A stretch of 64,000 bases of DNA from a virus. The stretch's first letter is position 1, and each line of letters opens with the position of its first letter. Of this stretch, positions 31,527 to 52,850 are shown piece by piece. The notes beneath the pieces are model-generated. The model saw only the letters and a program-made list of their open reading frames with translations, was not told the origin of the DNA and did not search any database. The stretch covers positions 1 to 64,000 of the IMG/VR virus record IMGVR_UViG_3300013093_000043, one strand, 5' to 3'. The position numbers were made by a program, and so were the translations under genes.

Positions 31527-31540
31527 GGATATAACACAAA

Positions 31541-32530
31541 ATGGCATACAGTTCAGGTGGCTTGATAGCAGCATCGGATTACAACGGATTTGTGGGCTCA
31601 AGCCCTAGTGCCGTTAGCAATACAATCAATACAGTTTGGGCCACCGGAAGTGGTGCTTGGGGCTACGGACAAACTGCTCTGTCACAGGTAAGCAGCAGCG
31701 GATTGGTCACTGCAACTCAATGGGCCAGTGCCATTAACACGCTAAACAGTATTCAAACACATCAAACCGGTAGTGGTACAGGACTTACAGCTCCCACTAC
31801 TGGAAGCCTAGCTACATATTTGGGATCGTTTAGTTCAAGCATTAACTCTGCCTATGGCAATGCACTAGTATTTGCTTCTCAAGGAACCACAGTAACCAAT
31901 GCCAATATTGCAGCGTCAGACGTTGCAGCCAATACAGCCAGCCCGGTATCGTATACTGTGACACGTACTGCAACCTTTGCCAGTGCTGACCAAGCAAGAT
32001 ATTTCTTCAACGCCGGCGGGCAATTGAATTATACCATTGCTGGAGTAACCAACAATGACGGAACTAGTCGTAGTGGAGACCTGGTAACTTTACTAGCAAC
32101 CAACCTTAAAGGCATAACAGCATTTAGAGCCAACACCAATGGTGGAAGAACTGGCTCGGGTGGTACAGTAAATACCAATACCACCAATATTGGCTACTAT
32201 GGACTTACTACTAGCAATGTTACTATACAACAAATCACTAGCACTACCAGTGGATATACTAGCGATTATGCAAACGTACAAGTTAAAACCAATGGTGTGC
32301 AAGGAACCAACAACGACAACGGGTCGGTCGTTACATTTTATCTAAATGTGTACAGTGCCAGTCGTCCCACATTGCCAGCAGCACCTCCTGCAGGACCAGG
32401 CGGTACTCCGGGAATTAGTAATACTGTAGTAAATGATACTATAAATGTTACCATACAACATCACATTGATATTGTTTATCCGGAAACAACCAATTTAAGC
32501 AACGTGTGGGGTGCAGTTACAATAGCATAA
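31541..32530 (+). CDS. Tail structural protein, copy 1 of a tandem pair
   Basis: A 329-residue protein closely related to the next gene. Shared parts are the start (MAYxxGGLI(A/E)ASDYN.F), GYGQTALSxVSSxGLV(T/S)A(T/S)QW, a TRTATF..ADQARYFFN.GGQLN core, and the end (H.(I)D(I/V)VYPETTNLSN.WG.VTIA). It is Asn/Thr/Ser rich and beta-predicted, lacks a signal peptide, and follows the fibre genes. It was probably a virion protein, perhaps part of the fibre assembly or a decoration exposed to host surfaces. The exact role is not recognised. AAGGATATAA precedes the ATG. Copy 1 carries a longer insert with a Pro/Ala-rich stretch (PTLPAAPPAGPGG) near residue 283. Confidence 0.6.
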   Translation: MAYSSGGLIAASDYNGFVGSSPSAVSNTINTVWATGSGAWGYGQTALSQVSSSGLVTATQWASAINTLNSIQTHQTGSGTGLTAPTTGSLATYLGSFSSSINSAYGNALVFASQGTTVTNANIAASDVAANTASPVSYTVTRTATFASADQARYFFNAGGQLNYTIAGVTNNDGTSRSGDLVTLLATNLKGITAFRANTNGGRTGSGGTVNTNTTNIGYYGLTTSNVTIQQITSTTSGYTSDYANVQVKTNGVQGTNNDNGSVVTFYLNVYSASRPTLPAAPPAGPGGTPGISNTVVNDTINVTIQHHIDIVYPETTNLSNVWGAVTIA

Positions 32531-32540
32531 GAGAATATAA

Positions 32541-33461
32541 ATGGCTTATAATCAGGGTGGATTAATCGAAGCCAGTGACTACAATAATTTTTTAAATGGG
32601 TCAAATCAATTAAATAGTATTTGGAGCACTGGAACTGGCAGTACCGGGTACGGTCAAACCGCTTTGAGTGCAGTGAGCTCGACTGGATTGGTTAGTGCTA
32701 GCCAATGGTCCAGTTTGATCAACACATTAAACAGTATTTCGGTACATCAAAGCGGTGTTGGATCGGGAATAAGTTCGGTTACTTCGGGCGGTACCATATA
32801 CTATCTCTCGGCATTGAGCAGTAGTATCAACACAGTTTATACCAATAGATTAACAAAAGCCACTCAAGGCACTACCACAACCGGATCAGTGTTCAGCCCA
32901 AACTACACTGTATCCAGTACGACCGCAGCACAAACCTGGAGCTTTACTCGCACTGCAACATTTGGCAATGCCGACCAAGCCCGATACTTTTTTAACTGTG
33001 GCGGACAACTGAATTTTGTCACTACCAGTGTAACCAACAACGATTCCAGTGTTCGTAGTGCCGATTGGGTAACATTGATTGGTACCAATTTCAACAGCCT
33101 CCCGGCAATAAACTACAACTCCAATGGCGGACGCAGTGGTATTGGTGGAACTGTTAATACTGCTGTTACCAATTTGGGATATTATGGACTGACAACTAGC
33201 AATGTGACCATTAGCAAAATAACAACATTATCGCCAACCTACACTGGAGACTATGTTGTAATGTCGTTGGGATCCAACGGCACACAAGGCACACATGGCG
33301 ATACTGGATCGGTTATTTACATGAATTTTACAGTATTTTCAGCTTCGACGGCTTCGGCATTTAACGAAAGTATAAATGTTACATGGAATCACAGAATCGA
33401 CGTAGTCTATCCAGAAACCACCAACTTGTCAAATAGTTGGGGCACAGTCACAATAGCATAA
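32541..33461 (+). CDS. Tail structural protein, copy 2 of a tandem pair
   Basis: A 306-residue paralogue of 31541-32530, starting 10 nt after it. The same ordered motifs are visible (GGLIEASDYNNF, GYGQTALSAVSSTG, TFGNADQARYFFNCGGQLNF, INVTWNHRIDVVYPETTNLS), with divergence concentrated in the middle. A tandem duplication followed by divergence is the simplest explanation, as often seen in host-range regions. It is the last gene of the late structural block; the next gene has its own sigma70-type promoter. No terminator hairpin is obvious in the 44 nt that follow. Confidence 0.6.
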   Translation: MAYNQGGLIEASDYNNFLNGSNQLNSIWSTGTGSTGYGQTALSAVSSTGLVSASQWSSLINTLNSISVHQSGVGSGISSVTSGGTIYYLSALSSSINTVYTNRLTKATQGTTTTGSVFSPNYTVSSTTAAQTWSFTRTATFGNADQARYFFNCGGQLNFVTTSVTNNDSSVRSADWVTLIGTNFNSLPAINYNSNGGRSGIGGTVNTAVTNLGYYGLTTSNVTISKITTLSPTYTGDYVVMSLGSNGTQGTHGDTGSVIYMNFTVFSASTASAFNESINVTWNHRIDVVYPETTNLSNSWGTVTIA

Positions 33462-36505: not shown

Positions 36506-37193
36506 CTTACTGGTAAATGGTGCCAGTTTTAGTCGAGGCCCAACTGCCTGGCCTTATCATCTTGACGGTGTCAATTTGACCAATTTGGCCTGTGCCGCTG
36601 CAGGTAATACCTATATTCATGACACCACTATTTCAGAATTGGCCAATAGAAAATATGATTTTGTTGCAATTATGTGGACTGAGCCGGCGAGAACTGATAT
36701 AAAAGTCTCAAACATAAATGTATTTAATACGTCAACTTATACCAGCAAGTATCAATCAACAAAAAACGATTGGCAAGGAAAAATAATTTATCCCGTTAAC
36801 GATCAAGACTATGTTGAAAAAAATTGGGTGTTTGGTTGCGGATATATCAATAAAGAATCAGAGTTATTAAAAACCAAATTATTTGACCAGTTATACCGTT
36901 ACCAGTCAATTGAACAACTAGTTGAAAAATCCTTGATACATATGATTTCTTTGCAAGGTATATTGAAGTCAATAAATATACCGTATTTGTTTATGTATGA
37001 TAACGATTATTCTGGTGACTTTCAAAAGTTTTCGGCATTGTATAATGTTCTGGATCAAGCCAATATCTACATCACCAATAACATATATGCTATAACAAAA
37101 CAAAACAACTGGTACGACGAGGACAAACATCATCCCGGCCCAGAAGCACACAAAAAATGGGCTGAATTAATTAATCCTTTTATAACAAAATGA
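36489..37193 (+). CDS. SGNH/GDSL hydrolase-like protein B
   Basis: A 234-residue protein. I chose the ATG at 36489 because it gives an immediate beta strand and the catalytic loop INLLVNGASFSRGPTAWP, in which GAS replaces GDS. The C-terminal block DEDKHHPGPEAHKKW keeps the Asp and His. An FVAIMWTEPARTDI segment corresponds to the central strand and oxyanion region of this fold, also seen in the two relatives near 50 kb (VVTSWTFPGRYEF, VVCGWTELSRLDI). It is likely an esterase or acyltransferase-type SGNH protein, though the altered first block lowers certainty. It overlaps the previous gene by 17 nt and the next by 4 nt. Confidence 0.55.
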   Translation: MKEPINLLVNGASFSRGPTAWPYHLDGVNLTNLACAAAGNTYIHDTTISELANRKYDFVAIMWTEPARTDIKVSNINVFNTSTYTSKYQSTKNDWQGKIIYPVNDQDYVEKNWVFGCGYINKESELLKTKLFDQLYRYQSIEQLVEKSLIHMISLQGILKSINIPYLFMYDNDYSGDFQKFSALYNVLDQANIYITNNIYAITKQNNWYDEDKHHPGPEAHKKWAELINPFITK

Positions 37194-38089
37194 CACAAGA
37201 TTTGATTGACATAGCCGATTTAGATGTAGTATTTTTAACATACGACGAACCACGACGAGAAGAATTTTGGATACAGATTCAAAACATGGTGCCTTGGGCA
37301 ACAAGAGTGGACGGTGTAAAAGGAAGTGATGCAGCTCACAAAGCAGCTGCTGATGCCAGCACTACTGATCGTTTCGTGCTCATTGATGGCGACAATATTC
37401 CCGACGCTAGTTTCTTCAACTTACAGTTGGATTCACGAATCAATGCTCGTGGGGTATTTCGTTATCGTGCTAGGAATAATATTAATGGCTTGATGTACGG
37501 CAACGGCGGATTGAGCATTTGGCACAAAGACTTTGTGTACAACATGCGGACACACGAGAATACAGATGGCTCAGATGCAACTGCTGTGGAGTTTTGTTTC
37601 CACCCGGACTATTGGGCTATGCATGACTGCTATAGCACCACATACCCTGATGCCACCGCATTCCAAGCATGGCGAGCCGGCTTTCGTGAAGGTGTTAAAA
37701 TGTGTTTGGACCGTGGTGCCAAGCCCTCAATCTCGGAGTTTAAAACTCGTGTAGTCGGTCGCAACATGGATAACCTAAGCATATGGCACAACGTGGGTGC
37801 TGACAATGAGATGGGCATTTGGGCCATGGCCGGTGCTAGACAAGGCACATATAATACAATGCTCTCGGACTGGGATTATCGAGAGGTGCAGGACTTTGCG
37901 ATGTTAAAAGACTATTGGGAAGAGACGGTGCAACATTTCAATCCGGTAAACTTTTTCCATAATTATCGAGAAGAATTAACACAACGTTTGGGCCTGCCCA
38001 TGGTTGATTTAGATGCTGAACAAAGTAGATTCTTTAAGCATCATTACAAAAGTAATTTTCGAAACACAGGACCCATGGTACGAGAATGA
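37190..38089 (+). CDS. GT-A-like protein with IDGDN motif
   Basis: A 299-residue protein with an N-terminal LDVVFLTYDEPRREEFW strand-helix, then TRVDGVKGSDAAHKAAADAS and a DxD-type site LIDGDNIPD (Asp66, Asp68), all ordered as in GT-A glycosyltransferases. A following RYRARNNINGLMYGNGGLSI segment is matched by FNARNPVNGLEYGHQGVIAY in the C-terminal domain of the 1075-residue protein at 54933. The match continues through FREGVKMCLDRGA / FREVIKLKHFDA and MAGARQGT / LAGARDAV. The two therefore share one domain family, although the larger protein reads AVFAKIEVD where this one has the DGD motif. Donor and acceptor are unknown. Confidence 0.6.
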   Translation: MTQDLIDIADLDVVFLTYDEPRREEFWIQIQNMVPWATRVDGVKGSDAAHKAAADASTTDRFVLIDGDNIPDASFFNLQLDSRINARGVFRYRARNNINGLMYGNGGLSIWHKDFVYNMRTHENTDGSDATAVEFCFHPDYWAMHDCYSTTYPDATAFQAWRAGFREGVKMCLDRGAKPSISEFKTRVVGRNMDNLSIWHNVGADNEMGIWAMAGARQGTYNTMLSDWDYREVQDFAMLKDYWEETVQHFNPVNFFHNYREELTQRLGLPMVDLDAEQSRFFKHHYKSNFRNTGPMVRE

Positions 38090-38610
38090 TCAAAGAAGTA
38101 AAATTAAATTACGACTTATCGGTATTTTTAAATGCCGATTACACCCAACACGAAGGTAGTTGTATCAAACATCAGGTATACGAATTGACCGATGTGCACG
38201 AAAAGTTTGGCGGGTTCCCTAAAACCTATAAGTATGATAATACTCTTATAAATCAATTATGGTGGGATAGCACACAAGTCGATTTTAAAGACATTGGCAA
38301 CCAATTGGGCATGGAAGTAATTACAGTAAGCAGTATTTTACAACCTCCAGGATGTGTTATACCCTTGCACAGAGACACCTTTTTTCAAATTAACCAACGC
38401 TATCCCGATCGCAAAGAATTAAAAGTACGTGCCAACATTTATCTTGAAGATTGGAAAACAGGTCATTTTTTACAATATGATGACATTGTGATATCAAATT
38501 GGCAAGCCGGTACTGGATACTTGTGGGACAGTAGTGTGTTACACCTAGGTGCTAATGCCGGAATGGAGGACAAATACACATTGCAAGTGTCGGGATTTTA
38601 TCATGAATAA
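38086..38610 (+). CDS. 2-oxoglutarate/Fe(II) oxygenase-like protein (Asp/Asn hydroxylase type)
   Basis: A 174-residue cupin-like protein with an HxD iron site (VIPLHRDTFFQIN, His95 and Asp97) and a distal His153 in VLHLGANAGMEDKYTLQVSG, a stretch typical of the last two strands in aspartyl/asparaginyl beta-hydroxylase-like oxygenases. KVRANIYLEDW provides the substrate-side strand. It could hydroxylate a small molecule, sugar nucleotide or protein. It lies immediately before the acyltransferase and ANL ligase genes with an 8-nt overlap, suggesting shared expression and possibly a shared pathway. Confidence 0.65.
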   Translation: MIKEVKLNYDLSVFLNADYTQHEGSCIKHQVYELTDVHEKFGGFPKTYKYDNTLINQLWWDSTQVDFKDIGNQLGMEVITVSSILQPPGCVIPLHRDTFFQINQRYPDRKELKVRANIYLEDWKTGHFLQYDDIVISNWQAGTGYLWDSSVLHLGANAGMEDKYTLQVSGFYHE

Positions 38611-40340: not shown

Positions 40341-41353
40341 TAAAATTAGAATCACGAGACGGTCAAATTTGGAATCTTGAAAGCAAAGTAGTTGAAATTA
40401 TCAATGAAGCAATTGCCACAAAAGGCAGTATTGTAATTGATTTCAACTACGAGGGGCCTTGCCTGCGTTCTTGTGGATTTTATCAATTACTAGACAGTGT
40501 AACAAAAACTTTCAATGTTGATAAATCGAGATTTGTAATACAGACTTGTAATGTGGAAGAATGTCATGATGAATATAAAATATTGATCAAAGATAATATT
40601 TGGCTAATTGAAGCCAAAAAATTTAGTAATGTGTTGGCACAGTCAAAAAATCCCGATTTAAAAACAGTAGGTTGTTTTATTGGAAAAACCAATTGGGCTA
40701 GATTGATATTGGTCGCCTGGCTTGATCTTAATTACCACAAGCAATCGTTATTGACCTGTCATCACAACAACAATGGCGAGATGCATCGTTCAGCACTACA
40801 GTTATCAGAGATAATGAATCGCAGTGCCGATGACATTGATGCAGCCACAAAATTTTTAAAAACTTGTCCTAGAACTCTTGAAAAATACGAAAAAAATTCT
40901 GATTTTTTACAAAATTATAATTATTCAACAAGTACAAAATATCAAGGAAGTTTAACCACAATGAGTTCATTGACTTTTGGATTTTCAAAAGTCTATTCAG
41001 ACATATTTTGTGAATTGGTATGTGAAACTTATTACAGTGGATTGACCTTCTTCCCCACAGAAAAAACATTTAAGCCCATTATACAACTGACACCATTTAT
41101 TGTGTTTGGTCCGCAAGGCCATTTGTCCAATTTGCAAAGATGCGGATTTAGAACATTTGGCAATTACTGGGACGAAAGTTACGATGATTTTGCTGGAATA
41201 GATAGAATAGACAAAATCAAAAAGATAATATCAACATTGTGTATGCAAACTCAAACACAATTACAAGACATGTATCATGACATGATGCCGATACTACAAC
41301 ACAATCAAAATAGATTATCAAAAATCACTCCCGGGGAATTAAAACTTGGATAA
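40337..41353 (+). CDS. TEKTFKP-family protein 1 (glycosyltransferase-like)
   Basis: A 338-residue protein, one of four in the window sharing a C-terminal block: a V(C/A)ET strand, FFPTEKTFKPIIQLTPFIVF, a GF(R/K/A)TF turn and a (F/W)DESYD motif (near residue 280 here), followed by a helical tail. The block order of Glu, a Thr-Glu-Lys loop, then PF..(F/V)G is reminiscent of the nucleotide-binding half of GT-B glycosyltransferases (for example the TEK loop of fucosyltransferases), but the similarity is only motif-deep. The N-terminal half differs between members. It overlaps the ANL ligase by 4 nt and the first radical SAM gene by 8 nt. Confidence 0.5.
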   Translation: MIKLESRDGQIWNLESKVVEIINEAIATKGSIVIDFNYEGPCLRSCGFYQLLDSVTKTFNVDKSRFVIQTCNVEECHDEYKILIKDNIWLIEAKKFSNVLAQSKNPDLKTVGCFIGKTNWARLILVAWLDLNYHKQSLLTCHHNNNGEMHRSALQLSEIMNRSADDIDAATKFLKTCPRTLEKYEKNSDFLQNYNYSTSTKYQGSLTTMSSLTFGFSKVYSDIFCELVCETYYSGLTFFPTEKTFKPIIQLTPFIVFGPQGHLSNLQRCGFRTFGNYWDESYDDFAGIDRIDKIKKIISTLCMQTQTQLQDMYHDMMPILQHNQNRLSKITPGELKLG

Positions 41354-42734
41354 AAGTAACTTCATGGCCAATGCCGAATGGATGCGGGACAATCTTGGAC
41401 CCGCACTCTGCTTGGCCAAATGGAAACAAGTAAGCCTACACTTGCCCACCGGACTCAACAACAGTTGTTATCATCCGCCACTGCACGCTATTGCCGCAGA
41501 TCAATTAAAAGATAATCCCGGAGCATTGCATAACACCGATCACAAGAAAGCTCAACGTGTTATTATGTTAAAGAATGAAAAACCCACAGAGTGTAGTTAT
41601 TGTTGGAATATTGAACAACATGGACAATTGAGTGATAGGCATTATCGTTCAGGCGAACCCTGGGCCGCAGAAGATTACGACGCTATAGTAAATAGTACTG
41701 GAAAGGAAGACGATGTCGTACCAAGTTATGTTGAAGTTAATTTTAATCATGCCTGTAATCTTGCTTGCAGCTATTGCAGCCCTCAATTTTCTAGTACCTG
41801 GCAAGCGGAAGTTGATCGATGGGGAGGATATCCTACTAGCACTATTCATAACGACCCTAGTCACTTTGTTGGTAGAAACCGCCCTATACCTGCCAGCCAT
41901 GACAACCCATATGTAACTGCATTTTGGGAATGGTGGCCTACGCTATACCCTAAACTAAAACATTTTAGAATGACTGGTGGCGAGCCACTCATGGATAAAA
42001 ACACATACAAAGTATTTGATTATGTGTTGGCCATACCCAAACCCGATTTGCATCTAAATGTCACTAGCAACTTTAGTGTAGAACCTGCACTATTTGACAA
42101 GTATTTGGGATATGTCAAGCAGTTATGCAACACACAAATAGAACATTTTATGCAGTTTGTGAGTTTAGATTCGGGAAATCCCGAACATGCTGAATATATT
42201 AGACATGGTTTAAATTTTCGAAGAATGGAATGGAATGTTAATTCATTCTTACATGAAATCCCATACCGCAATAGTCTTACGTTTATTATTACAATGAACA
42301 ATCTCAGTGTATTGGGACTACAACAACAATTGGAGTGGATCCTGGCACTACGCAAGTCGTACAGTACCACATACCAACGTGTTTGGTTCGACACTCCACT
42401 GTTGCGTAAACCCGAATGGCAAAGTTTACAAATACTTCCTCCTGTATACATTGCAATGTTAGAACGTGTGGCCGACTGGATGGAACTAAATTTAGAAACG
42501 GCCGAAGATCCATTTCATGGATTCAAAGACTACGAAGTGCAACGTATGCGTCGGGATATAGATTGGATGAGGGAAGGTAGCAAATTGGATCCTGATTATG
42601 TTAAACTACAACGTGCCGACTTTTATAGATTCTTTAACGAACACGACAAACGCCGCAAAACCGATTTCATAGAAACATTTCCGCAGATGCGAGAATTTTG
42701 GAACGAATGCGAATACCATGCCAAAAATCAATAA
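41346..42734 (+). CDS. Radical SAM protein 1, N-terminal twitch-like cysteine region
   Basis: A 462-residue radical SAM protein. The cluster motif CNLACSYC (Cys137, 141, 144) follows a FNHA strand. FRMTGGEPLM supplies the GGE SAM-amine motif, with a downstream QFVSLDSGNPEHAEYIRHGL segment. Upstream of the core, residues 18-100 hold SCYHPPLHA and ECSYCWNIEQHG cysteines, a twitch/SPASM-like auxiliary cluster region placed at the N-terminus instead of the usual C-terminus. It is closest to the next gene, both having a SC(Y/H)HP form. The start may be TTG at 41346 or ATG at 41364. The substrate is unknown. Confidence 0.8.
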   Translation: MDKSNFMANAEWMRDNLGPALCLAKWKQVSLHLPTGLNNSCYHPPLHAIAADQLKDNPGALHNTDHKKAQRVIMLKNEKPTECSYCWNIEQHGQLSDRHYRSGEPWAAEDYDAIVNSTGKEDDVVPSYVEVNFNHACNLACSYCSPQFSSTWQAEVDRWGGYPTSTIHNDPSHFVGRNRPIPASHDNPYVTAFWEWWPTLYPKLKHFRMTGGEPLMDKNTYKVFDYVLAIPKPDLHLNVTSNFSVEPALFDKYLGYVKQLCNTQIEHFMQFVSLDSGNPEHAEYIRHGLNFRRMEWNVNSFLHEIPYRNSLTFIITMNNLSVLGLQQQLEWILALRKSYSTTYQRVWFDTPLLRKPEWQSLQILPPVYIAMLERVADWMELNLETAEDPFHGFKDYEVQRMRRDIDWMREGSKLDPDYVKLQRADFYRFFNEHDKRRKTDFIETFPQMREFWNECEYHAKNQ

Positions 42735-44097
42735 CGAAACAGACTCACAGTACAAGCGTCGAGTAATTGACATCAAGTCCAAATCATTCTGCGGGGCAAA
42801 ATGGTACAATGCCACTATATGGTTAGGCTCGGGGCAAACCACAAGTTGTCATCATCCCTTACCGCATCAAGTCAGTGTCGAGGCAGTGACTGCCAATCCC
42901 AAAGCCTTACACAATACTCCAGAAAAGAAACACCAACGTGAGCAAATGCAACGCGGCGAGCGTCCTAGTGGTTGTGAATACTGCTGGAAGATTGAAGATA
43001 TGCATAAAGACACCGTTGGAGATGTTGCCGAGCCCATCAGTGACCGAGTATACAAAACAGTAATTTATTCAGACAAGGACTTAGATCGAGCATACCGAAC
43101 ACCTGCTGACCAAGACGTGGACCTACAAACTTTGGAAATCGCATTCGACCGAACTTGTCAGTTTGCTTGTTCTTATTGTAACCCTGCTTTTAGTAGCACT
43201 TGGGTTAAAGACATTAAACAACATGGTGCCTACACCAACTTGGTTAGTGACGGCAGGAACCATTTTACCCATACCCATAATAGTAGTCAACTTTATAAAT
43301 TCGGTGAGACTAATCCGTATGTGGAAGCGTTCCACAAGTGGTGGGAATCAAACCTCCATAGAACCCTAAAAGAACTACGCATTACAGGTGGCGAACCTTT
43401 AATGAGTGCAGAGACTTGGCGGTTGATTGAATGGTTTAAGACCAACCGAGGCAAGAGTAAGACACGACTTGCCATTAACAGCAACTTGGGCACAGATGTA
43501 GATGTGGATAGATTGCTTGCAGCCATTGATGGTGTTGAAGTAGATTTATATACCAGCAACGAAGCACTAGGGGCACAAGCTGAATACATACGTGATGGTT
43601 TAGTGTGGCAGGATTGGTGCAACAACGTAGAAAAGTTATTGCAAAGTCAAAAGTTCCGCGGCATTCATGTTATGTGTACAATTAATTTATTGTGTTTAGA
43701 TAGCTTGCCTGAATTCCTAGATGTCGTAATGAATTGGAAATTGGAATACGGAAAAGATGCAATTAACTTTTCGCTAAATATATTACGCTTTCCAAGTTTT
43801 CAATCACTAACCATTCTCCCTAGCGACATTAGACAAAGTTATGCCGGTAACCTATATGCATTCAGCAATAGATGGGGACGCGGCACCCACTTTGATTTGT
43901 TTCACGAGTTTGAACAAAATCAGCTAGACCGACTACTTGATTATATTGATGTGGTACAAAAACCACACGAGGAAGCCATGTCACAACAGATACTACAACG
44001 TGACTTTAAAAACTTTTATATGCAATATGATCAACGCCGAGGCAAAGACTTTGCCAAAACATTCCCTGCACTGGCCGACTGGTACAATAAACTATAA
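42718..44097 (+). CDS. Radical SAM protein 2, N-terminal twitch-like cysteine region
   Basis: A 459-residue paralogue of radical SAM protein 1. CQFACSYC carries the iron-sulfur cysteines (Cys147, 151, 154), and RITGGEPLMS the SAM motif. The N-terminal region contains CGAKWYNATIW, TSCHHPLPHQ and GCEYCWKIED cysteines. Shared features with protein 1 include LHNT..KK..R..M in the N-terminal region, AEYIRDGL, FP.L/F..W at the end, and similar length, so the two probably arose by duplication. It overlaps protein 1 by 17 nt and touches protein 3. As a SPASM/twitch-type enzyme it could modify a peptide or a sugar, but no precursor peptide gene was found beside it. Confidence 0.8.
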   Translation: MPKINNETDSQYKRRVIDIKSKSFCGAKWYNATIWLGSGQTTSCHHPLPHQVSVEAVTANPKALHNTPEKKHQREQMQRGERPSGCEYCWKIEDMHKDTVGDVAEPISDRVYKTVIYSDKDLDRAYRTPADQDVDLQTLEIAFDRTCQFACSYCNPAFSSTWVKDIKQHGAYTNLVSDGRNHFTHTHNSSQLYKFGETNPYVEAFHKWWESNLHRTLKELRITGGEPLMSAETWRLIEWFKTNRGKSKTRLAINSNLGTDVDVDRLLAAIDGVEVDLYTSNEALGAQAEYIRDGLVWQDWCNNVEKLLQSQKFRGIHVMCTINLLCLDSLPEFLDVVMNWKLEYGKDAINFSLNILRFPSFQSLTILPSDIRQSYAGNLYAFSNRWGRGTHFDLFHEFEQNQLDRLLDYIDVVQKPHEEAMSQQILQRDFKNFYMQYDQRRGKDFAKTFPALADWYNKL

Positions 44098-45407
44098 TGA
44101 AAAAACACTACAAGTATAACGACCGCAATCCGATATATCCGTCAGCAACTCCCCTTACTGAAGAAGAGTTGGTCCTGGTTACTGAAAGCGAAACATTTTG
44201 TATTATCCCTTGGATTCACATGCACGGATTTCCCGATGGTAGAGCTTACCCTTGTTGTTTAAGCGACTATTGGCATCCCATCGGCGACTTCCGCAAAAAC
44301 ACTATGGAAGAGATTTGGAATCAAGAGCCGATTCGAAACATGCGCAAGAACATGTTGGAGGGCAAGAAGTGCAAAGAATGCACCAAGTGCTACGAGATAG
44401 AAGACAATGGCATGTTCAGTATGCGTAACAGTTTTTCTCGAGACTTTGGACATCATGTTACTTTGGTTAAAGATACCAAGCCTGATGGAACATATGAAGA
44501 TTTCAAAATACGCTATTATGATGTGCGTTTTTCTAACATGTGCAATTTTAGATGCAGAATGTGCGGACCAGTGTTTAGCAGCAATTGGTACAACGATCAT
44601 GTAAAAATGTATGGCAAAAAGCCTGACGTACTAGGACGTCCAATGGAACGTATTGAGTATGCTGGTAGACACAAATACGACATGTGGGAACAACTAGAGC
44701 AACACATTCCCTATCTTGACCAAGTGTATTTTGCCGGTGGCGAGCCATTGATCATGGAAGAGCACTACATGATACTGAAAGAGCTGGTGCGCCGTGAACT
44801 GTTTCATGTACGTTTAATTTACAACACAAATTTCAGTGAGGTGTTGTACAAAGATCAAGACGTAATGGAAATGTGGAAACTGTTCAAGGTTGTTTCGGTT
44901 GGAGCAAGTTTAGACGACAACTATGCACGTGGCGAATACATACGTAAGGGACAGGATTGGAAACAAACTGTAACAAATAGAGAACGTATGCTAAAGATTT
45001 GTCCCAACGTAGACTTTTATGTTAGTAGTACTGTAATGTTATACAATGTGGGACACATACCCGAGTTTCACAGAGAATGGGTAGACTTGGGCTTGGTAAG
45101 ACCCCAGGACTGGAACATAAACTTATGCCAAAGTCCCGAACATGATCGTGCCGATGTGTTACCGCGTTACTACAAAGACATTGCAATTGAAAAAATTCAA
45201 CGTCATTTGGAATGGCTTGAGCCACTAGACAAATTGACTCGTGCCACCAACGGATACAAAGGTATCATTACATTTTTGAATCAAACAGATAACAGTCATC
45301 AACTTGGTGAGTTTTTTCGAGCCAATGATGCCATGGATCAAGTGCGTGATGAAAAGTTTGAAACAGTATTTCCCGAATATAAGGACCTAAGAAGCCATGT
45401 TACCTGA
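44097..45407 (+). CDS. Radical SAM protein 3, N-terminal twitch-like cysteine region
   Basis: A 436-residue radical SAM protein with CNFRCRMC (Cys149, 153, 156), preceded by YYDVRFSNM. AGGEPLIMEEHY contains the SAM-binding GGE. Its N-terminus differs from proteins 1 and 2: FCIIPWIHMHGFPDGRAYPC ends in a Cys pair, followed by TMEEIWNQEPIRNMRKNMLE and CKECTKCYEIEDNG. This PW.H..P.G..(P)CC...C..CY..E layout is the twitch/SPASM cluster motif normally found after the radical SAM core. It groups with proteins 4 and 5. Its start shares bases with the preceding stop (TAATG), and it overlaps protein 4 by 11 nt. Confidence 0.8.
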   Translation: MKKHYKYNDRNPIYPSATPLTEEELVLVTESETFCIIPWIHMHGFPDGRAYPCCLSDYWHPIGDFRKNTMEEIWNQEPIRNMRKNMLEGKKCKECTKCYEIEDNGMFSMRNSFSRDFGHHVTLVKDTKPDGTYEDFKIRYYDVRFSNMCNFRCRMCGPVFSSNWYNDHVKMYGKKPDVLGRPMERIEYAGRHKYDMWEQLEQHIPYLDQVYFAGGEPLIMEEHYMILKELVRRELFHVRLIYNTNFSEVLYKDQDVMEMWKLFKVVSVGASLDDNYARGEYIRKGQDWKQTVTNRERMLKICPNVDFYVSSTVMLYNVGHIPEFHREWVDLGLVRPQDWNINLCQSPEHDRADVLPRYYKDIAIEKIQRHLEWLEPLDKLTRATNGYKGIITFLNQTDNSHQLGEFFRANDAMDQVRDEKFETVFPEYKDLRSHVT

Positions 45408-46608
45408 AACAATTTGTATGCTACCTTGGGTCAGTATAGAAGCAAGTCCAATGGGCACAACCCGTCCCTGTTGTTTGGCACAAGAAGAAATTACTGACAC
45501 TCACGGTAACAAAATAGATTTACGTACAAGTACACTACAAGACGCATACAAAAGCGAATACATGCAAGACTTGCGTAGACAATTTCGTGCAGGCAAACGA
45601 CCCAACACTTGCAGAATGTGTTGGGAAGAAGAAGCCGCAGGCAGAGATAGCAAGCGTATACACAGCCGTGTACGTCTTAAAGAATTATATCCACAAGTTG
45701 ATTGGCAGAATGATACTCCGGATCAACTGTGGTTTATAGATTTAAAACTGGGCAACATCTGTAATTTAAAATGTCGTATATGCGGATCATGGAGTAGTAG
45801 CAAGTGGGCCGCAGAAGAAATGGATTACTTGCCTGCAGGAGCAGACAAGAAAAAGCACGTTGCATATACTTGGTTAAAAGCCGGTAAGTGGCCCGAAGAA
45901 TCGCCAGACTTTTGGGAGAACCTTAAAGCACTGTTACCCAACATACGATACTTTGAGTTTACTGGCGGTGAGCCTTGGTTGATACAAGAACATTTTGATC
46001 TACTACAATACGCAGTGGATCAAGGTTACAGTCGAAACATCGATATACACTACAATACCAATGCCACACAAACACCATTACCTCATGTGCCTATGTGGGC
46101 AAATTTTGGACGTGTGGATATTGCATTTAGTATCGACAATGTAGGCAAGAGATTTGAATATGAACGTTACGGTGCCAATTGGGCAGAAGCTAACGGTAAT
46201 ATTGACCGAACACATTTTGCCAAAAAAGACATGTGCCCCAATATCACAACACAGTTATGCTTTACCATCAACATACAAAATGTCTACTACCTAGATGAAT
46301 TGTTGGCATGGGCCGACACAAAAGGTTTTGGTAGCGTATATTTTAATATGTTGCAAAGTCCCGAACGCATGAACATACAACGCATGACACCGCAAGCACA
46401 AGAGTTGGTATTGAACAAATTAAAAACACATTTTTGGACCAGCACCAAGTACCAACAAGAAATTGATAATGTTATTCGCTTTATTGAAAACGGCACAGGT
46501 AGTGACGGCACCGAGTTTGTAAAAAATATGAAACAAACAGATGCGTACCGTAAACAAAACTTTCTAGATACACATCCTGAAATAGCCAGGGCAATGGGTT
46601 ATGAGTAA
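45397..46608 (+). CDS. Radical SAM protein 4, N-terminal twitch-like cysteine region
   Basis: A 403-residue protein. The N-terminal auxiliary region reads ICMLPWVSIEASPMGTTRPC (with a second Cys next), then TCRMCWEEEAAGRDSKR. The core has CNLKCRIC (Cys122, 126, 129), FEFTGGEPWLIQEHF and SIDNVGKRFEYERYGANW. It shares the PW..I/H...P.G..PCC layout with proteins 3 and 5. The conserved Trp-Glu-Glu-x-x-Gly after the Cys pair is repeated in the group. The C-terminus DTHPEIARAMGYE has no further cysteines, so no C-terminal SPASM domain is present. It overlaps the next gene by 8 nt. The reaction is unknown. Confidence 0.8.
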   Translation: MLPETICMLPWVSIEASPMGTTRPCCLAQEEITDTHGNKIDLRTSTLQDAYKSEYMQDLRRQFRAGKRPNTCRMCWEEEAAGRDSKRIHSRVRLKELYPQVDWQNDTPDQLWFIDLKLGNICNLKCRICGSWSSSKWAAEEMDYLPAGADKKKHVAYTWLKAGKWPEESPDFWENLKALLPNIRYFEFTGGEPWLIQEHFDLLQYAVDQGYSRNIDIHYNTNATQTPLPHVPMWANFGRVDIAFSIDNVGKRFEYERYGANWAEANGNIDRTHFAKKDMCPNITTQLCFTINIQNVYYLDELLAWADTKGFGSVYFNMLQSPERMNIQRMTPQAQELVLNKLKTHFWTSTKYQQEIDNVIRFIENGTGSDGTEFVKNMKQTDAYRKQNFLDTHPEIARAMGYE

Positions 46609-47506
46609 GATTGTATTGATAACTCATCCCACTGATTTAACATCATTTAATGCCACATATTTAGAACCAATACTTGATAAGTATTTTACAGTTGTATATT
46701 ATGATCGAGATTTGAAATATCCTAAATCATCTGTAGCAATAGTAGGCAAGACAAATAACAATTGGTATACGAAATTAAATACTAAAATTGCGATTGTTAA
46801 CTTATGGGAAAAAGATAAACAACGTACTAACTTTCCCTGTTTCAACATCGCAAACAAGAATTGGTTTTGGTACAACGAATCACTGTGGTATAAAAAGAAT
46901 GGATACGATTTGTATATACCAAACAAACAATATACCCATACTGCATTCATGCAAATGCGTTTACAAAAACCCAATAGAGATAAATTGTTAAATAAATTAC
47001 AACCATATTTAGATAATATGATCTATAGTTATGTTGCCAAAGGAATTTATTTACCCAAAGACCTACCGCACGATTTAGATACGTTAACCGGTAATTTTCA
47101 ACGAAACTTTAACCCATTATGGTACGACAATACTTATTATAGCATTGTTGCAGAAACTCATATCGACGACACTACGATATTTCCCACTGAAAAAACGTTT
47201 AAACCTATAGCATTTTTACATCCATTTATGATACTAGGACAATTTAAAATTTTATCTTATATTAAAAGTTTAGGATTTGCAACATTTGATAACTTGTTTG
47301 ACGAATCTTATGATAATGTAAAAAATTATAATTTAAGAATAGATAATATAGTAGAGAATGTTAAAAACTTTATTTTAGAATCATATAGTAAAGAAACAGT
47401 AGATAAATTAAATCATAATAAAGAATTATTTTTTAATCAAAAAATAGTCGAGCAAAGAATAGTCAATGAAATAATAAATCCCTTAATAGAATATGCAGAA
47501 ACCTAA
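46601..47506 (+). CDS. TEKTFKP-family protein 2 (glycosyltransferase-like)
   Basis: A 301-residue protein inserted between radical SAM genes 4 and 5. It carries the family block VAETHIDDTTIFPTEKTFKP, then FLHPFMILG, LGFATFDNLFDESYDN, with a helical tail ending NEIINPLIEYAET. The N-terminal half (KIVLITHPTDLTSFNATYLE; YFTVVYYDRDLKYP) looks like a Rossmann-type domain, consistent with a two-domain GT-B fold. The nucleotide composition is notably AT-rich compared with its neighbours, suggesting separate acquisition. It overlaps both flanking genes. The glycosyltransferase assignment is inferred from layout and genomic context only. Confidence 0.5.
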   Translation: MSKIVLITHPTDLTSFNATYLEPILDKYFTVVYYDRDLKYPKSSVAIVGKTNNNWYTKLNTKIAIVNLWEKDKQRTNFPCFNIANKNWFWYNESLWYKKNGYDLYIPNKQYTHTAFMQMRLQKPNRDKLLNKLQPYLDNMIYSYVAKGIYLPKDLPHDLDTLTGNFQRNFNPLWYDNTYYSIVAETHIDDTTIFPTEKTFKPIAFLHPFMILGQFKILSYIKSLGFATFDNLFDESYDNVKNYNLRIDNIVENVKNFILESYSKETVDKLNHNKELFFNQKIVEQRIVNEIINPLIEYAET

Positions 47507-48815
47507 TACCTTGTGTATGGCACCGTGGACACACACGTACCTAAGTCCACAAACAGAACGACGTATGTGTTGTGCGTCGCGAGAGCCCGCACAGAATTTT
47601 GAACAGTATATTGATACGGAATCTGGCACCGGACGATATATACCCGTCACACTAGACGAACATTGGAACAGTGATCATATGCGTTCAGTCAGACGCAGGA
47701 TGATAGCAGGAGAGACACTCCCCGAGTGCGAAGTATGTAATGATCGACTGTTGAATACCTCGGTTTACCGCAGTTATTTTAATCAACTGTTTGGTGATAA
47801 GTACAATGAAGCAATTGCTTCCACAGATGAAACAGGTCGCACTAGCATGAAACCTGTAAGCTGGGACTATCGGTTCAGCAATCTCTGTAATTTTAAATGC
47901 CGTATGTGTGGCGATATGTTAAGCAGTGCTTGGGAAACCGAGCAACGCACACACCGCATGATCGACTACACCAATCCCAAGAACAATTGGATGCGACCTG
48001 AAGTCAAAAAACAAATTGAACAATTCCAAGCGACTCAAATTGAACAAGAGTTTAGCGACGCAGTAGAAGAACATAGGGTTGAGGAAGTCTACTGGGTAGG
48101 TGGCGAACCGTTGATGTACGAACAACACTGGAGGTACATGCAACGCATAGTTGAATTAGGAGACGGTCCACGTGTTTATGCTAGATATAATACTAATCTT
48201 TCCCGTGTTAATTATCGTGGCATTGATTTGTATACGGACATTTTGGCAAACTTGCGTGACTGGCAAATTTGTGCCTCGCTCGATGGAACAGGAGCAATTG
48301 GCGAATATATTAGAACAGGCCTTGAGTACAATCGGTGGCTTGAGAACTTCCGTAGAGGAACTGAGATTGCAACTAATGCTAGACAGATGCGAATCGATTT
48401 CACACTCACGTTGCCAGGAATGTTTGAATGTGGGCGAGTGCAAGCTCTTGGAAAAGAACTTGGTGCGGAAATCCTTGCCAAAGTAATTTTTAGTTTTAGC
48501 CCGGACATAGTTATGAGCCCGTTAGCACTACCCCGGGAGTTATTACATTCTTGGATAGATGAAATATTGGGTGACACCCCAGGGGGTATTAACCATATAC
48601 CTGATAACAGTCCCTTACGAGACATACTAGTCCAGCTAAAAACTAGACAGACATTTGAGGAACAATGGCCTGACACTTATCAAAGTGGGCTAATAAAGGG
48701 CAAACAACGTATACTAGAGCTTGAAAAAATTCGAAAAGACGTGTATACTATGAGAGACATACTCGCGGAACGTCCACAAGTATTAAAATGGTGGGATAGC
48801 ATTGAAACAAGTTAA
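47493..48815 (+). CDS. Radical SAM protein 5, N-terminal twitch-like cysteine region
   Basis: A 440-residue protein completing the array. The N-terminal region has LCMAPWTHTYLSPQTERRMC followed by a second Cys, then LPECEVCNDRL. The core has CNFKCRMC (Cys132, 136, 139), VYWVGGEPLMYEQHWR and ICASLDGTGAIGEYIRTGLE. The YRFSNLCNF context matches protein 3 (VRFSNMCNF). Residues 170-205 contain an insert (EQFQATQIEQEFSDAVEEHR) between the cluster motif and GGEP. The C-terminus is helical. It overlaps the gene before by 14 nt and the gene after by 14 nt. As for the others, chemistry and substrate cannot be read from sequence. Confidence 0.8.
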   Translation: MQKPNTLCMAPWTHTYLSPQTERRMCCASREPAQNFEQYIDTESGTGRYIPVTLDEHWNSDHMRSVRRRMIAGETLPECEVCNDRLLNTSVYRSYFNQLFGDKYNEAIASTDETGRTSMKPVSWDYRFSNLCNFKCRMCGDMLSSAWETEQRTHRMIDYTNPKNNWMRPEVKKQIEQFQATQIEQEFSDAVEEHRVEEVYWVGGEPLMYEQHWRYMQRIVELGDGPRVYARYNTNLSRVNYRGIDLYTDILANLRDWQICASLDGTGAIGEYIRTGLEYNRWLENFRRGTEIATNARQMRIDFTLTLPGMFECGRVQALGKELGAEILAKVIFSFSPDIVMSPLALPRELLHSWIDEILGDTPGGINHIPDNSPLRDILVQLKTRQTFEEQWPDTYQSGLIKGKQRILELEKIRKDVYTMRDILAERPQVLKWWDSIETS

Positions 48816-49869
48816 AGTCGTATTACGCAATCCGTTAAACAAACGAGATCAAATTGATTACACAATAGATGTAAACGATTCGCCTATGGGCGAGTTATGG
48901 TTCTCTGCATTGCAGGACTTATTGCGTAACAACAATTACTTAGAGAAGAACTTTTGTTTTCTTGGCTTCCCTGATAGTGCAAGAAACTTAGACTTTATAT
49001 GCAAAGAGTTAAATTGGGCAACGAATAAAATCAATAAATTCTTTGGACAAGAATATTGGATACCTGAAGTATATTTGCCCAGTACTATGCGTACAGGATT
49101 TGACCCCAATCAAGAGGTAATGAATAGGCTACATAATCACTTTGAACATTTACAAGGAACTGTGTGGGAGTTAAGTGATTATTACCGACGTGCAGACTAT
49201 GAAACAAAATTTGCAATACGACAACTAAACAATTTATGTCACGAAGCAGAAAGTTTAATGTTAAGTCAACGCAAACAAGCAACACAACCTGAATGGGTAC
49301 GACCCAGTCAAATAACAACTTTTTTAAACGCACCTAGGATAGATTTCCCCAATGAACATAAAACTTCTTTTGACGAAACTAGATACGATAGACGATTCGG
49401 GGAAGTCTACCTCCATTGGACGCAGATTGGTAAAACGCTTTATGAAGTCTATCGTGATGAGCATGGAGTGGATATCGATAGTGCTACTTGTGATGCTATT
49501 ACTCATTTACGCTATTATAGTGGAGAGTTTGATATTGAGTGGGCACAAGATGTTATCTTTAATGGACCGCATCCGTGGCACACACGAGAAATGACTGGAT
49601 TTAGAGAGTGGTTGCATCGTAACGGATTTGATACCGAAAATACCGAATACAATTATGGATATCACGCTGTCGGGCAAGTGGAATTACAAAAAAGTTTTGG
49701 AACTACTGACTTTAAAAAAGTTTGGCCCATACTGTCTAAGTACCTTGATATTGTAAGTATAGAAGCAGGAGATGCACAGGCAGTATACGATTATACCTGG
49801 ACCGACACAGATTATTATCAACAACAAATTGAACGAATGAGACCGGGATATGATTTTAGCAGCCGGTGA
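48802..49869 (+). CDS. Hypothetical protein, possibly associated with the radical SAM array
   Basis: A 355-residue protein not recognised. It starts at TTG (48802), overlapping the radical SAM gene before it. It has a short N-terminal beta hairpin (QVKVVLRNPLNKRDQIDYTI), a predominantly helical middle with NHFEHLQGTVWELSDYYRRA near 108-127, and a His-rich C-terminal half (GEVYLHWTQIGKTLYEVYRD; THLRYYSGEFDIEW; YGYHAVGQVELQKSFG). Several His, Asp and Glu residues could bind metal, but no known motif is evident. The overlap with flanking genes suggests it acts in the same process, perhaps as a substrate-handling partner. Confidence 0.55.
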   Translation: MKQVKVVLRNPLNKRDQIDYTIDVNDSPMGELWFSALQDLLRNNNYLEKNFCFLGFPDSARNLDFICKELNWATNKINKFFGQEYWIPEVYLPSTMRTGFDPNQEVMNRLHNHFEHLQGTVWELSDYYRRADYETKFAIRQLNNLCHEAESLMLSQRKQATQPEWVRPSQITTFLNAPRIDFPNEHKTSFDETRYDRRFGEVYLHWTQIGKTLYEVYRDEHGVDIDSATCDAITHLRYYSGEFDIEWAQDVIFNGPHPWHTREMTGFREWLHRNGFDTENTEYNYGYHAVGQVELQKSFGTTDFKKVWPILSKYLDIVSIEAGDAQAVYDYTWTDTDYYQQQIERMRPGYDFSSR

Positions 49870-50647
49870 CAGTTTTGTTTATGGCAGCGAGTTGGCTGAT
49901 GTTACATCAATCGTTCCTAGTAAAAATACATTTACTGCATTATTAGGTGCTACCGAAACGGTCGCCTGGCCCGGATATGGCAATGACAGTATAGCACGTA
50001 CTGTTATTGAACGATGCGAACAAGGCGATGTCACAGGAGTCGTAACAAGTTGGACTTTTCCGGGCCGATACGAATTTAGATTCAACTACAATACTTATCA
50101 ACGCAAAAGTCCGTGGTACACAATCAATTCCTGGACCAGCAATCTCGACATTGAAAATATCAAAAAAGAATTTTTTAATCAAGACGAAAAAACATCAAAA
50201 CATCTATTGGATAATGCATTGCGAGCAAAAAATTTAGGTATCAATGATTTTGCACGAGTGTTTTACCAACATGTGGGCAATAGCGAGTATTGGGAAATAT
50301 ACAGTAGCCTTAAAGAAATTGTTTATTTGCAAAACTATCTAAAACTAAAATCAATTCCGTATATGTTTACTTGTGCCGATACTTACATGTTTTATCACAA
50401 CACCGAAATTGATGCTACTCTTAAAAGTTTATTTGGTCAAATTGATTTCGACAAATGGTATTTTTTCCCAGAAGGTGCAGAATGGGAAACAACTACCCCG
50501 AGAGGTTTTTACCAATGGGCAGTAGAGAATAAATACCCAATGGGAGCCATGCATCCACTGGAACCGGCTCACCTAGCTGCTGCCGAACTAATGAAGGAAA
50601 AATTCAATGAACTGGTTAAAAAGTCTATACAACCGAGCGGTGCTTGA
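49850..50647 (+). CDS. SGNH-like protein C, altered triad
   Basis: A 265-residue protein starting MILAAGDSFVYGSEL, the GDSF block I of SGNH hydrolases, with a VVTSWTFPGRYEFRFNYNTY strand near residue 64 corresponding to the central part of the fold. The C-terminal block reads GAMHPLEPAHLAAAELM, where the usual Asp of the D..H pair is absent. Either another acidic residue supplies the charge or the protein is a Ser-His type. It overlaps the previous gene by 20 nt. A 33-codon gene in another frame overlaps its last 41 nt. It is closely related to protein D at 50705. Confidence 0.55.
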   Translation: MILAAGDSFVYGSELADVTSIVPSKNTFTALLGATETVAWPGYGNDSIARTVIERCEQGDVTGVVTSWTFPGRYEFRFNYNTYQRKSPWYTINSWTSNLDIENIKKEFFNQDEKTSKHLLDNALRAKNLGINDFARVFYQHVGNSEYWEIYSSLKEIVYLQNYLKLKSIPYMFTCADTYMFYHNTEIDATLKSLFGQIDFDKWYFFPEGAEWETTTPRGFYQWAVENKYPMGAMHPLEPAHLAAAELMKEKFNELVKKSIQPSGA

Positions 50648-50708
50648 AATACGCTACCGAAAAAAATTACGCGAACTACGCAAACGAGATCCATTTATTT
50701 ACAAATGA
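50607..50708 (+). CDS. Overlapping micro-protein of 33 residues
   Basis: An ATG-to-TGA frame of 33 codons between the two SGNH-like genes. It starts inside the end of protein C (41-nt overlap) and ends on the start of protein D (ATGA overlap). The translation begins MNWLKSLYNRAVLEI and continues RYRKKLRELRKRDPFIYK. It would form one highly basic amphipathic helix. The end-to-start ATGA coupling and the fact that it fills an otherwise odd 57-nt gap support a real gene. Similar tiny basic helices are common among small phage host-takeover or membrane-surface proteins, but no function is assigned. Confidence 0.5.
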   Translation: MNWLKSLYNRAVLEIRYRKKLRELRKRDPFIYK

Positions 50709-51391
50709 TATTGACTCTAGGCGATAGTTTTACTTATGGGTCCGAGTTGGCTGACCGTCCCATGAACTACTCTGTGACTACACATTTACCTCCCAGCAGT
50801 TTTGCTTGGCCCGTCTTGTTAGCAAAAAAATTAAATACAACGGTTGATAACTTGGCATTGCCCGGGGCCAGTAACGCTAGAACATTTAGGTTGGCGATGT
50901 CAACAACAGTAAAGAAAAAATATGATATTGTGGTTTGTGGGTGGACTGAATTATCACGACTTGACATCCAGTATCAGGACACAGATTTTCCGGTCACAAT
51001 CAATTCGGGAAAATGGTTTAAAAATGAGTTACCTTGGATTGACGATTACTATAGATTAAGTTATAATGAAAAGCATGCAGCCGAAACATGGTTGTCGCAA
51101 TTGGTGGCATTACAGGATTTTTTTAAATACAACGGTCAAAGATACTTGTTTTTGAGTATGCAAGGGTATGGTATACTGCCAGGATTTCTTGGGACAGACA
51201 CAATAGAAAACTTTGTAGAATTAGAAAAACGAATTGATCGACAATACTATCTCAATTGGCCCAACGGCGGCATGGTAGATTGGATGGCAGATTGTCCAAA
51301 AGGTCCTGGCGGACATCCGCTAGAACTAGGGCACGAACGAATAGCAGATAAAATTTATGAACATATTAGGAGTCTCGGCTGGCTTTCATGA
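50705..51391 (+). CDS. SGNH-like protein D, altered triad
   Basis: A 228-residue protein beginning MILTLGDSFTYGSELADRP, almost the same block I as protein C, with LALPGASNARTFRLAMS matching the G.SN block II and VVCGWTELSRLDIQY the block III strand. The C-terminal block is GPGGHPLELGHERIADKI; His is present, but the usual upstream Asp is Gly. The pattern suggests a distinct SGNH subfamily shared with protein C. It overlaps the carbamoyltransferase gene by 35 nt. It may remove or add acyl groups on the same glycan modified by the neighbouring carbamoyltransferase. Confidence 0.6.
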   Translation: MILTLGDSFTYGSELADRPMNYSVTTHLPPSSFAWPVLLAKKLNTTVDNLALPGASNARTFRLAMSTTVKKKYDIVVCGWTELSRLDIQYQDTDFPVTINSGKWFKNELPWIDDYYRLSYNEKHAAETWLSQLVALQDFFKYNGQRYLFLSMQGYGILPGFLGTDTIENFVELEKRIDRQYYLNWPNGGMVDWMADCPKGPGGHPLELGHERIADKIYEHIRSLGWLS

Positions 51392-52850
51392 TGCCGCAGT
51401 AACATTATTATCACCTGCGGGTGAGATATTGTTTGCCGCACACAGTGAAAGATACAGCAAAATTAAAAACGATCCCAACATACATTCGGAAATGGTATGG
51501 GATTTGGTCAACGCTGAGAATTGTTTCGGGCTTGATACCATTGCCTATTACGAACGTCCCTTGTATAAACAAGCACGGCAGTGGTATTCGGGACAGGGTA
51601 TTGAATGGAACAAATTAATCGCACGTAAAATATTACGAGATCAAATACGAATATTTGATTTCTCCAGTGTACCAGTTAAGAGTTATAATCACCATTTAAG
51701 CCATGCGGCAGCAGGATTTCAAACAAGTCCATTTGATCGTGCTACAGTGGTTGTTATTGATGCTATAGGTGAATGGGATACTATCAGCATCTGGGGCGCA
51801 GAATACAACGGCCGAGGTGAAGCAACTTACAAACGCTTATGGGGACAACGGTATCCGCATAGCATAGGATTGTTTTATAGCGCAATGACACAACGTTGTG
51901 GCCTAAAACCCAACGAAGAAGAATATATTACAATGGGCATGAGTGCGTATGGTACTAATGTGTTTGATGACTTGGTACAAACTGCAGTAATTGAAAACGA
52001 GTGGGAAATTAGATTAAAGCAAAATTTACACTTGGGCTTTACTGAAGACTTTTTTAAGGAAGCTGGTGTAGAGGAAATGGCACGCAGTGCACAAAACGTA
52101 GCCGAGATATTGATATTGAATGTTATGTATCGTGCCAAGAAGTTAGGCTGGAGTAATAACTTATGCTACATGGGCGGAGTCGCACTTAACTGTAGTGCCA
52201 ATAGACACATAGGAGCTTATTTTGATAATGTATGGATTATGCCAAATCCTGGCGATGCTGGTAGCAGTCTTGGTGCTGCGGCACTTGCGTATAAAAAACG
52301 TGTTAATTGGCGCGATGCTTTTCTTGGCCATGATATACCTGGTGCCTATCCTGTTAACGACGTACTTGATCACTTACTTAGTGATAAGATTGTTGGTGTG
52401 GCTAGTGGTCGCGCAGAATTCGGACCTAGAGCCCTGGGAAATAGAAGCCTACTCGCGGATCCGAGAGGAAGTGAAATCAAGGACCAAGTAAATGAAATCA
52501 AACGCAGACAAAAATTTAGACCTTTTGCGCCGGTTATTCTTGAAGAATATGCCCCGGAGTATTTTGACATGCCTCGGGGCTTTGCTACTAGCCCTTACAT
52601 GCAGTCAGTGGCTCATTGCCGCCATCCCGATCTATTTCCTGCTATTGTACATCACGATGGAACAAGTCGAGTACAAACCGTTGGACGAGACGGATCGGGA
52701 ATAAGAGAACTACTAGAAAAATGGTTTGTTATGACCGGATGCCCTATGTTGCTTAACACAAGTCTAAACATACGTGGCGAACCCATGGTAAACGATCGTA
52801 CAGATGCAGATCGTTTTGAACAACTATATGGTGTACGGGTGTGTTCATGA
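51357..52850 (+). CDS. NodU/CmcH-family O-carbamoyltransferase
   Basis: A 497-residue enzyme of the NodU/CmcH/TobZ family, which forms carbamoyl-adenylate from carbamoyl phosphate and ATP and moves the carbamoyl group to a hydroxyl of a sugar or other metabolite. The N-terminal Kae1-like domain shows MNILGVSAGFHDAAVTLLSP, the metal-binding NHHLSHAAAGF (near 111) and VVVIDAIGEW. NEEEYITMGMSAYG and GGVALNCSANR follow. The C-terminal YrdC-like part has GRAEFGPRALGNRSLLADPR (from 351) and FAPVILEE. The length is slightly below typical (about 550-600). It starts 35 nt inside the SGNH-D gene. A sugar hydroxyl is a likely acceptor in this context. Confidence 0.85.
   Translation: MNILGVSAGFHDAAVTLLSPAGEILFAAHSERYSKIKNDPNIHSEMVWDLVNAENCFGLDTIAYYERPLYKQARQWYSGQGIEWNKLIARKILRDQIRIFDFSSVPVKSYNHHLSHAAAGFQTSPFDRATVVVIDAIGEWDTISIWGAEYNGRGEATYKRLWGQRYPHSIGLFYSAMTQRCGLKPNEEEYITMGMSAYGTNVFDDLVQTAVIENEWEIRLKQNLHLGFTEDFFKEAGVEEMARSAQNVAEILILNVMYRAKKLGWSNNLCYMGGVALNCSANRHIGAYFDNVWIMPNPGDAGSSLGAAALAYKKRVNWRDAFLGHDIPGAYPVNDVLDHLLSDKIVGVASGRAEFGPRALGNRSLLADPRGSEIKDQVNEIKRRQKFRPFAPVILEEYAPEYFDMPRGFATSPYMQSVAHCRHPDLFPAIVHHDGTSRVQTVGRDGSGIRELLEKWFVMTGCPMLLNTSLNIRGEPMVNDRTDADRFEQLYGVRVCS

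Follow-up and report, generated by a model that had tools for sequence, protein, structure and literature searches.

The window analysed here, a stretch of 64,000 nucleotides (positions 1 to 64,000) from the virus record IMGVR_UViG_3300013093_000043, encoded five radical S-adenosylmethionine (SAM) proteins, designated R1 to R5, in a tightly overlapping string of genes at 41346-48815. The complete record comprised 67,680 bases, and genes upstream of R1-R5 matched T4-like baseplate and tail-fibre families. The same five classes, in the same order, were found in dozens of other viruses. All five genes were located on the plus strand and encoded radical SAM proteins with an N-terminal twitch domain: R1 (41346..42734, 462 amino acids), R2 (42718..44097, 459 amino acids), R3 (44097..45407, 436 amino acids), R4 (45397..46608, 403 amino acids) and R5 (47493..48815, 440 amino acids). 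R1 may start at the ATG at 41364 instead of the TTG at 41346. A 301-amino-acid cargo gene of family f8 (46601..47506, plus strand) was inserted between R4 and R5. Consecutive genes overlapped by 17, 1, 11, 8 and 14 nucleotides in order, and by 8 and 14 nucleotides at the two ends of the stretch. Coordinates and frames were as given in a preliminary description of this DNA, which had reported five large open reading frames (ORFs) with one inserted gene and overlaps of 1-17 nucleotides.

R1-R5 all matched the NCBIfam family NF033640 (N_Twi_rSAM, "twitch domain-containing radical SAM protein") across nearly the whole profile, with 298, 290, 394, 334 and 288 bits for R1 to R5, respectively, far over the cut-off of 170 bits. 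Because these matches were nearly full-length, the order in which the auxiliary-cluster region precedes the core is already that of a named family, sharing the N-terminal layout of R1-R5. This layout, first regarded as unusual, is thus not novel. NF033640 is an undivided family, in contrast to the five classes seen here. To our knowledge, no reaction has been assigned to it, and a text search of the open-access literature retrieved no paper naming it. Separate acquisition of unrelated genes was rejected, since R1-R5 all belonged to this one family.

The radical SAM Pfam domain was detected in each of the five proteins, whose core read CxxxCxxC followed by GGEP, confirming the CxxxCxxC and GGE motifs already noticed in each of them. 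Conservation was counted over 251 class-assigned representatives from all five clades (R3 numbering). The CxxxCxxC cysteines (C149/C153/C156) and the GG of the SAM motif were 100% conserved in all five clades, as were four N-terminal cysteines located before the core (C35/C54/C95/C98). This joint conservation of catalytic and N-terminal cysteines is far beyond chance. In R1, cysteines C22/C41/C83/C86 and C137/C141/C144 were invariant within the clade. Each class also displayed its own set of invariant residues (62 to 179 per class), and R5 was the most conserved class, with 179 positions at which conservation within its clade reached at least 93%.

The Pfam SPASM domain was recognised above cut-off at the N-terminus of R3 (residues 35-98, 47.9 bits) and of R4 (24.1 bits), and just under cut-off in R5 (19.9 bits); the same search of R1 and R2 gave no match. 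R3-R5 harbored a fifth N-terminal cysteine next to C54 (CC), at the place where R1 and R2 read SC(Y/H)HP, so that four N-terminal cysteines were conserved in R1/R2 and five in R3-R5. The SC(Y/H)HP motif proposed for a first subgroup therefore held for R1 and R2, but the PCC motif proposed for all of R3-R5 did not, R5 reading RMCC.

When the family profile was compared to solved structures, its N-terminus aligned with the C-terminal twitch domain (182-259, E-value 7e-7) of BtrN, a 2-deoxy-scyllo-inosamine dehydrogenase with one auxiliary cluster (PDB 4m7s/4m7t), and its core with radical SAM enzymes, viperin among them. In BtrN this twitch domain, homologous to the N-terminal domain of R1-R5, lies after the core, while the same domain stands before the core in R1-R5, and nothing indicates a common substrate. 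The AlphaFold2 model of R3 was confident (predicted local distance difference test score, pLDDT, 93.5; predicted template modelling score, pTM, 0.90), and Foldseek matched it to the radical SAM structures CteB, viperin, anSME, BlsE and SuiB with a probability of 1.00, CteB being the best solved match. Among solved structures no match exceeded a template modelling (TM) score of 0.37 by query length, hence no solved structure with the architecture of R3 was found. Among predicted viral structures (BFVD), many uncharacterised phage proteins resembled the R3 model, up to a TM score of 0.93; the 'MoaA/nifB/pqqE' proteins of phages KVP40 and phi-pp2 reached TM scores of 0.58-0.74. The full-length family matches, the alignment with the BtrN twitch domain and the BFVD relatives all supported the N-terminal twitch/SPASM-type cluster site that had been proposed for these proteins.

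In a FastTree phylogeny of 274 radical SAM representatives from virus loci, each R protein of the window fell into a clade of its own; the five clades counted 47-54 members, drawn from 45-51 loci per clade and mostly single-copy (54 sequences from 51 loci for R2). Clade support was 1.0 for R2 and R5, 0.75 for R1, 0.64 for R4 and 0.49 for R3. The classes were largely recovered by IQ-TREE when cellular homologues were included, R1 and R2 grouping together, apart from R3 and R5, and R4 lying loosely nearer R1/R2. The earlier division into two subgroups was supported, with R1 and R2 set against R3 and R5. The five genes were indeed related; recent tandem duplication was nevertheless rejected because of the five separate clades, and, judging from sequence, R1-R5 are old paralogues, each kept as its own orthologue group.

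Class-specific profiles detected all five classes in 47 loci, of which 33 non-redundant virus loci were obtained after removal of near-duplicates. The order R1-R2-R3-R4-R5 was kept in 32 of these 33 loci, with other genes inserted between. Each virus record had between 3 and 19 radical SAM copies, with extra low-scoring paralogues inserted. Two related contigs displayed an in-frame fusion of R3 and R4 in ORFs of about 840 amino acids (L046:12713-15253 and L047:14634-17159), which hints at a physical association of R3 and R4.

Of the five classes, R3 most resembled the cellular homologues found. A scan of genome contigs with R3 only gave no relative, but an alignment-based scan did, and relatives of R3 sharing 29-49% identity were present in Bacteroidota, Bdellovibrionota, Elusimicrobiota and others. 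The best two of these relatives (L101 and L102), as well as L148, were phage-like contigs in GTDB metagenome bins (Rickettsiales, Flavobacterium, Rhodobacteraceae). A chromosome contig of a Bacteriovoracaceae bacterium (L108:6040-18036), free of phage genes, also encoded all five classes, flanked by obg and lgt and in the order R2-R5-R4-R3-R4-x-R1-R2-x-R1(-). A phage-specific set was rejected on account of this contig. When relatives of Bacteriovoracaceae were searched by class, relatives of R5 were found in 8 of the 129 genomes of the class to which L108 belongs, and R5 and R4 were adjacent in L187 and L189. Since the same five recur in order across viruses and together on a bacterial chromosome, R1-R5 probably act together on one shared product.

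Phages and Bdellovibrionota may share cargo. An Oligoflexia chromosome contig (L195:9034-10128) carried a second radical SAM type resembling, by eye, the phage cargo family f13; this gene adjoined R4-type genes and a possible 2-oxoglutarate oxygenase. A single Elusimicrobia genome of 2.9 Mb (bin-0981, G056; L116, L117, L120, L144) contained at least 75 N_Twi radical SAM matches, many of which were tandem TPR-SPASM-radical SAM fusions of 680-1100 amino acids adjoining an ORF that, by eye, was asparagine-synthetase-like. Among cultured phages, tblastn only matched K566 and K567, for R1 and R3, at 22-25% identity; the same search with f1 or f2 gave no match.

The R1-R5 genes were part of a longer conserved string, composed in order of f5 (tail fibre), f4, f3 (about 110 amino acids), f2 (usually twice), a small gene (f7 or a substitute), f1, R1-R5, f6, f9 and a NodU-type gene, with variable cargo sitting between the conserved genes, including among R1-R5. 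In the window, the string started with the tail-fibre/virion proteins f5 and f4 (30345..33461, plus strand), assigned from PHROG tail-fibre matches for f5 and from the conserved order. The f2 pair (33792-34610 and 34607-35446, plus strand), a family present in 67 loci, was weakly GT8 (glycosyltransferase family 8)/glycogenin-like. The f1 gene (37190..38089, plus strand), GT-A-like by eye from a DGDN motif, preceded R1 by at most 8 genes in 68 of 74 loci. Cargo genes encoding a hexapeptide transferase (38549-39250, plus strand, PF00132) and an AMP-binding ligase (39252-40340, plus strand, PF00501) followed. The f8 family, glycosyltransferase-like by eye only and sharing the motif TEKtfkpI..PF...GF.TF, was represented by four paralogues, two on the plus strand (40337-41353 and the gene between R4 and R5) and two on the minus strand (53750-54934 and 61266-62369).

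Downstream, the 3' partner of R5 was f6 (48802..49869, plus strand, 355 amino acids), kept in 41 of 75 loci. It gave no Pfam, PHROG or PDB fold match, and its AlphaFold2 model (pLDDT 77.8, pTM 0.79) had no match to PDB folds with an E-value below 1. Two f9 genes (49850-50647 and 50705-51391, plus strand), of an SGNH-type family found in 30 loci, came next, the second with similarity to DUF6071/GDSL, then a NodU-type carbamoyltransferase (51357-52850, plus strand; f10, in 26 loci). Pfam matches for the 49850..52850 block were PF19547, PF02543 and PF16861. Genes for a DegT aminotransferase and an epimerase were located farther downstream on the opposite strand. The baseplate and tail-fibre genes upstream and the variable cargo are features of a T4-like host recognition cluster; the glycosyltransferase assignment was weak in the window.

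Associations of this kind have been published. According to the accessible portions of two papers, the T4-like genome TARA_ERS488813_N000010 contains 12 radical SAM genes (PMC5332604), and tail fibres, GT8 genes and radical SAM cassettes stand together in the host recognition cluster of pelagimyophages, whose glycosyltransferases were read as modifying the O-chain against coinfection (PMC7029224). These T4-like aquatic phages thus combine tail fibres, GT8 and radical SAM genes as the window does; the same portions report counts and cassettes, but not orthologue classes, a fixed order, an N-terminal twitch domain or bacterial counterparts. Vibrio phage K566, which is unrelated, carries genes matching Pfam GT8 (E-values 8e-8 and 2.5e-12) between radical SAM genes of the same layout and family, one protein having an N-terminal SPASM match and three others clear profile matches. 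The K566 proteins fell outside the five clades, however, and its three adjacent genes did not follow the R1-R5 order.

The neighbouring genes (GT8-like, hexapeptide transferase, carbamoyltransferase and SGNH) and the GT8 genes of K566 point to a saccharide or glycoconjugate as substrate and favour saccharide tailoring of the host surface or of the virion, in agreement with the host recognition cluster described in PMC7029224. The fixed order, the class-specific invariant residues and the R3-R4 fusion speak for different roles within a single pathway. We tentatively prefer, as the leading candidate, that R1-R5, five distinct N-terminal-twitch members kept as an ordered set where T4-like aquatic phages encode tail fibres and host recognition, jointly tailor a saccharide or glycoconjugate. 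Radical SAM enzymes generate a 5'-deoxyadenosyl radical with the cluster held by CxxxCxxC. Each R protein would bind a catalytic [4Fe-4S] cluster at this motif and cleave SAM to the radical, and the four N-terminal cysteines would hold one auxiliary [4Fe-4S] cluster, binding the substrate or taking its electrons as in the BtrN twitch domain. Working one after another or side by side, R1-R5 could oxidise, epimerise or deoxygenate a single saccharide or glycoconjugate, and the stepwise chemistry on one substrate envisaged in the preliminary description is plausible at the level of sequence. This saccharide would be built and decorated by enzymes encoded nearby (GT8-like, hexapeptide and carbamoyl transferases, and SGNH hydrolases), and the product would end either on the host envelope, as a changed receptor, or on the virion fibres.

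Several observations weigh against a saccharide substrate, for which the genomic context amounts to guilt by association. The glycogenin match of f2, its top PDB profile match, was weak (E-value about 0.08), f1 had no Pfam or PDB-profile match, and the gene at 46601-47506, initially called glycosyltransferase-like, had no hidden Markov model, Pfam or PDB-profile match as such and deserves that label at best. No glycosyltransferase was recognised among the immediate neighbours of the five-class cluster of L108. The solved folds nearest to the R3 model belonged for the most part to enzymes acting on peptides or nucleotides, with low TM scores. Cellular contexts were mixed, also when 90 genes neighbouring cellular homologues were tallied by Pfam: many TPR-twitch-radical SAM fusions in Elusimicrobia, a PqqD-like gene (E-value 4e-4, just under cut-off) adjoining an R2-type gene in one bacterium (L191), and a Paenibacillus homologue (L149) among genes for acyl carrier protein (ACP)-like proteins, ketoacyl synthase and ligase. 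Because these contexts differ, the substrates of NF033640 as a whole are probably of more than one kind.

The most serious rival, unlikely as we judge it, is modification of a peptide or protein, either the tail-fibre proteins encoded upstream (cross-links, epimerised or oxidised residues) or a distant precursor resembling those of ribosomally synthesised and post-translationally modified peptides (RiPPs). Tail-fibre genes open the same gene string, the sactipeptide maturase CteB matches R3 best among solved structures, anSME and SuiB being matched too, the Elusimicrobia fusions suggest protein docking, and the PqqD-like protein of L191 stands beside an R2-type gene. Yet four loci (L093, L094, L099 and L100) had the five classes but lacked the f5-f1 tail-fibre string, and the string left no room for a precursor gene. 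For a radical SAM maturase system, a precursor gene and/or a PqqD-like RiPP recognition element (RRE) would be expected; neither was found for R1-R5 in the window, where, from 31.5 to 53.9 kb, successive genes were at most 57 nucleotides apart and no RRE/PqqD domain was detected among the proteins scanned with Pfam. The initial remark that no precursor peptide lies nearby was in this respect upheld, as a weakly informative result, and a RiPP cluster within the window was rejected for want of precursor space and of an RRE among the proteins scanned.

Tailoring of an acyl- or carrier-bound small molecule or a lipid (lipid A, a polyene-like compound or a secondary metabolite) instead of a saccharide appears improbable. 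The AMP-binding ligase of the window, the surroundings of the Paenibacillus homologue and a fatty acid desaturase upstream of the L094 cluster would fit it, but neither an ACP nor a ketoacyl synthase was recognised around the phage set, and the ligase is cargo lying outside the conserved string. That R1-R5 form a diversified set and not a pathway, as redundant copies with one and the same reaction on variable substrates, would agree with the 3 to 19 copies per record and the inserted paralogues but is, if anything, still more improbable, against five single-copy orthologue groups with separate invariant residues and a fixed gene order.

As for joint tailoring of a saccharide by R1-R5, a more far-reaching version is doubtful: a dedicated multi-step radical pathway of many aquatic T4-like and jumbo phages and of predatory Bacteriovoracaceae, performing an undescribed glycan or glycoprotein modification that changes surface recognition. 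The NF033640 family, the N-terminal layout and multi-copy radical SAM genes in T4-like phages are already known; no description of the five distinct, mostly single-copy orthologue classes in fixed order, or of the bacterial locus with all five, was found in the open-access literature, so far as its text was available, and both are new in this sense. Five sub-classes are hereby defined within a large uncharacterised radical SAM family, with a conserved operon for finding the substrate. If the substrate is a saccharide, phages would alter surface recognition by radical chemistry, excluding other phages or decorating their fibres. The bacterial locus between obg and lgt makes the same set accessible outside uncultivated viruses.

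Two further features were observed upstream in the window. A 4053-amino-acid ORF was located among the baseplate and tail genes (11429-23590). At 25898-26866, a Gly-rich tail-fibre-like protein was encoded, the C-terminal half of which resembles, by eye, a Hint/intein-type self-processing domain (CFPAGSQVLMADLTWKNIESVQVGE).

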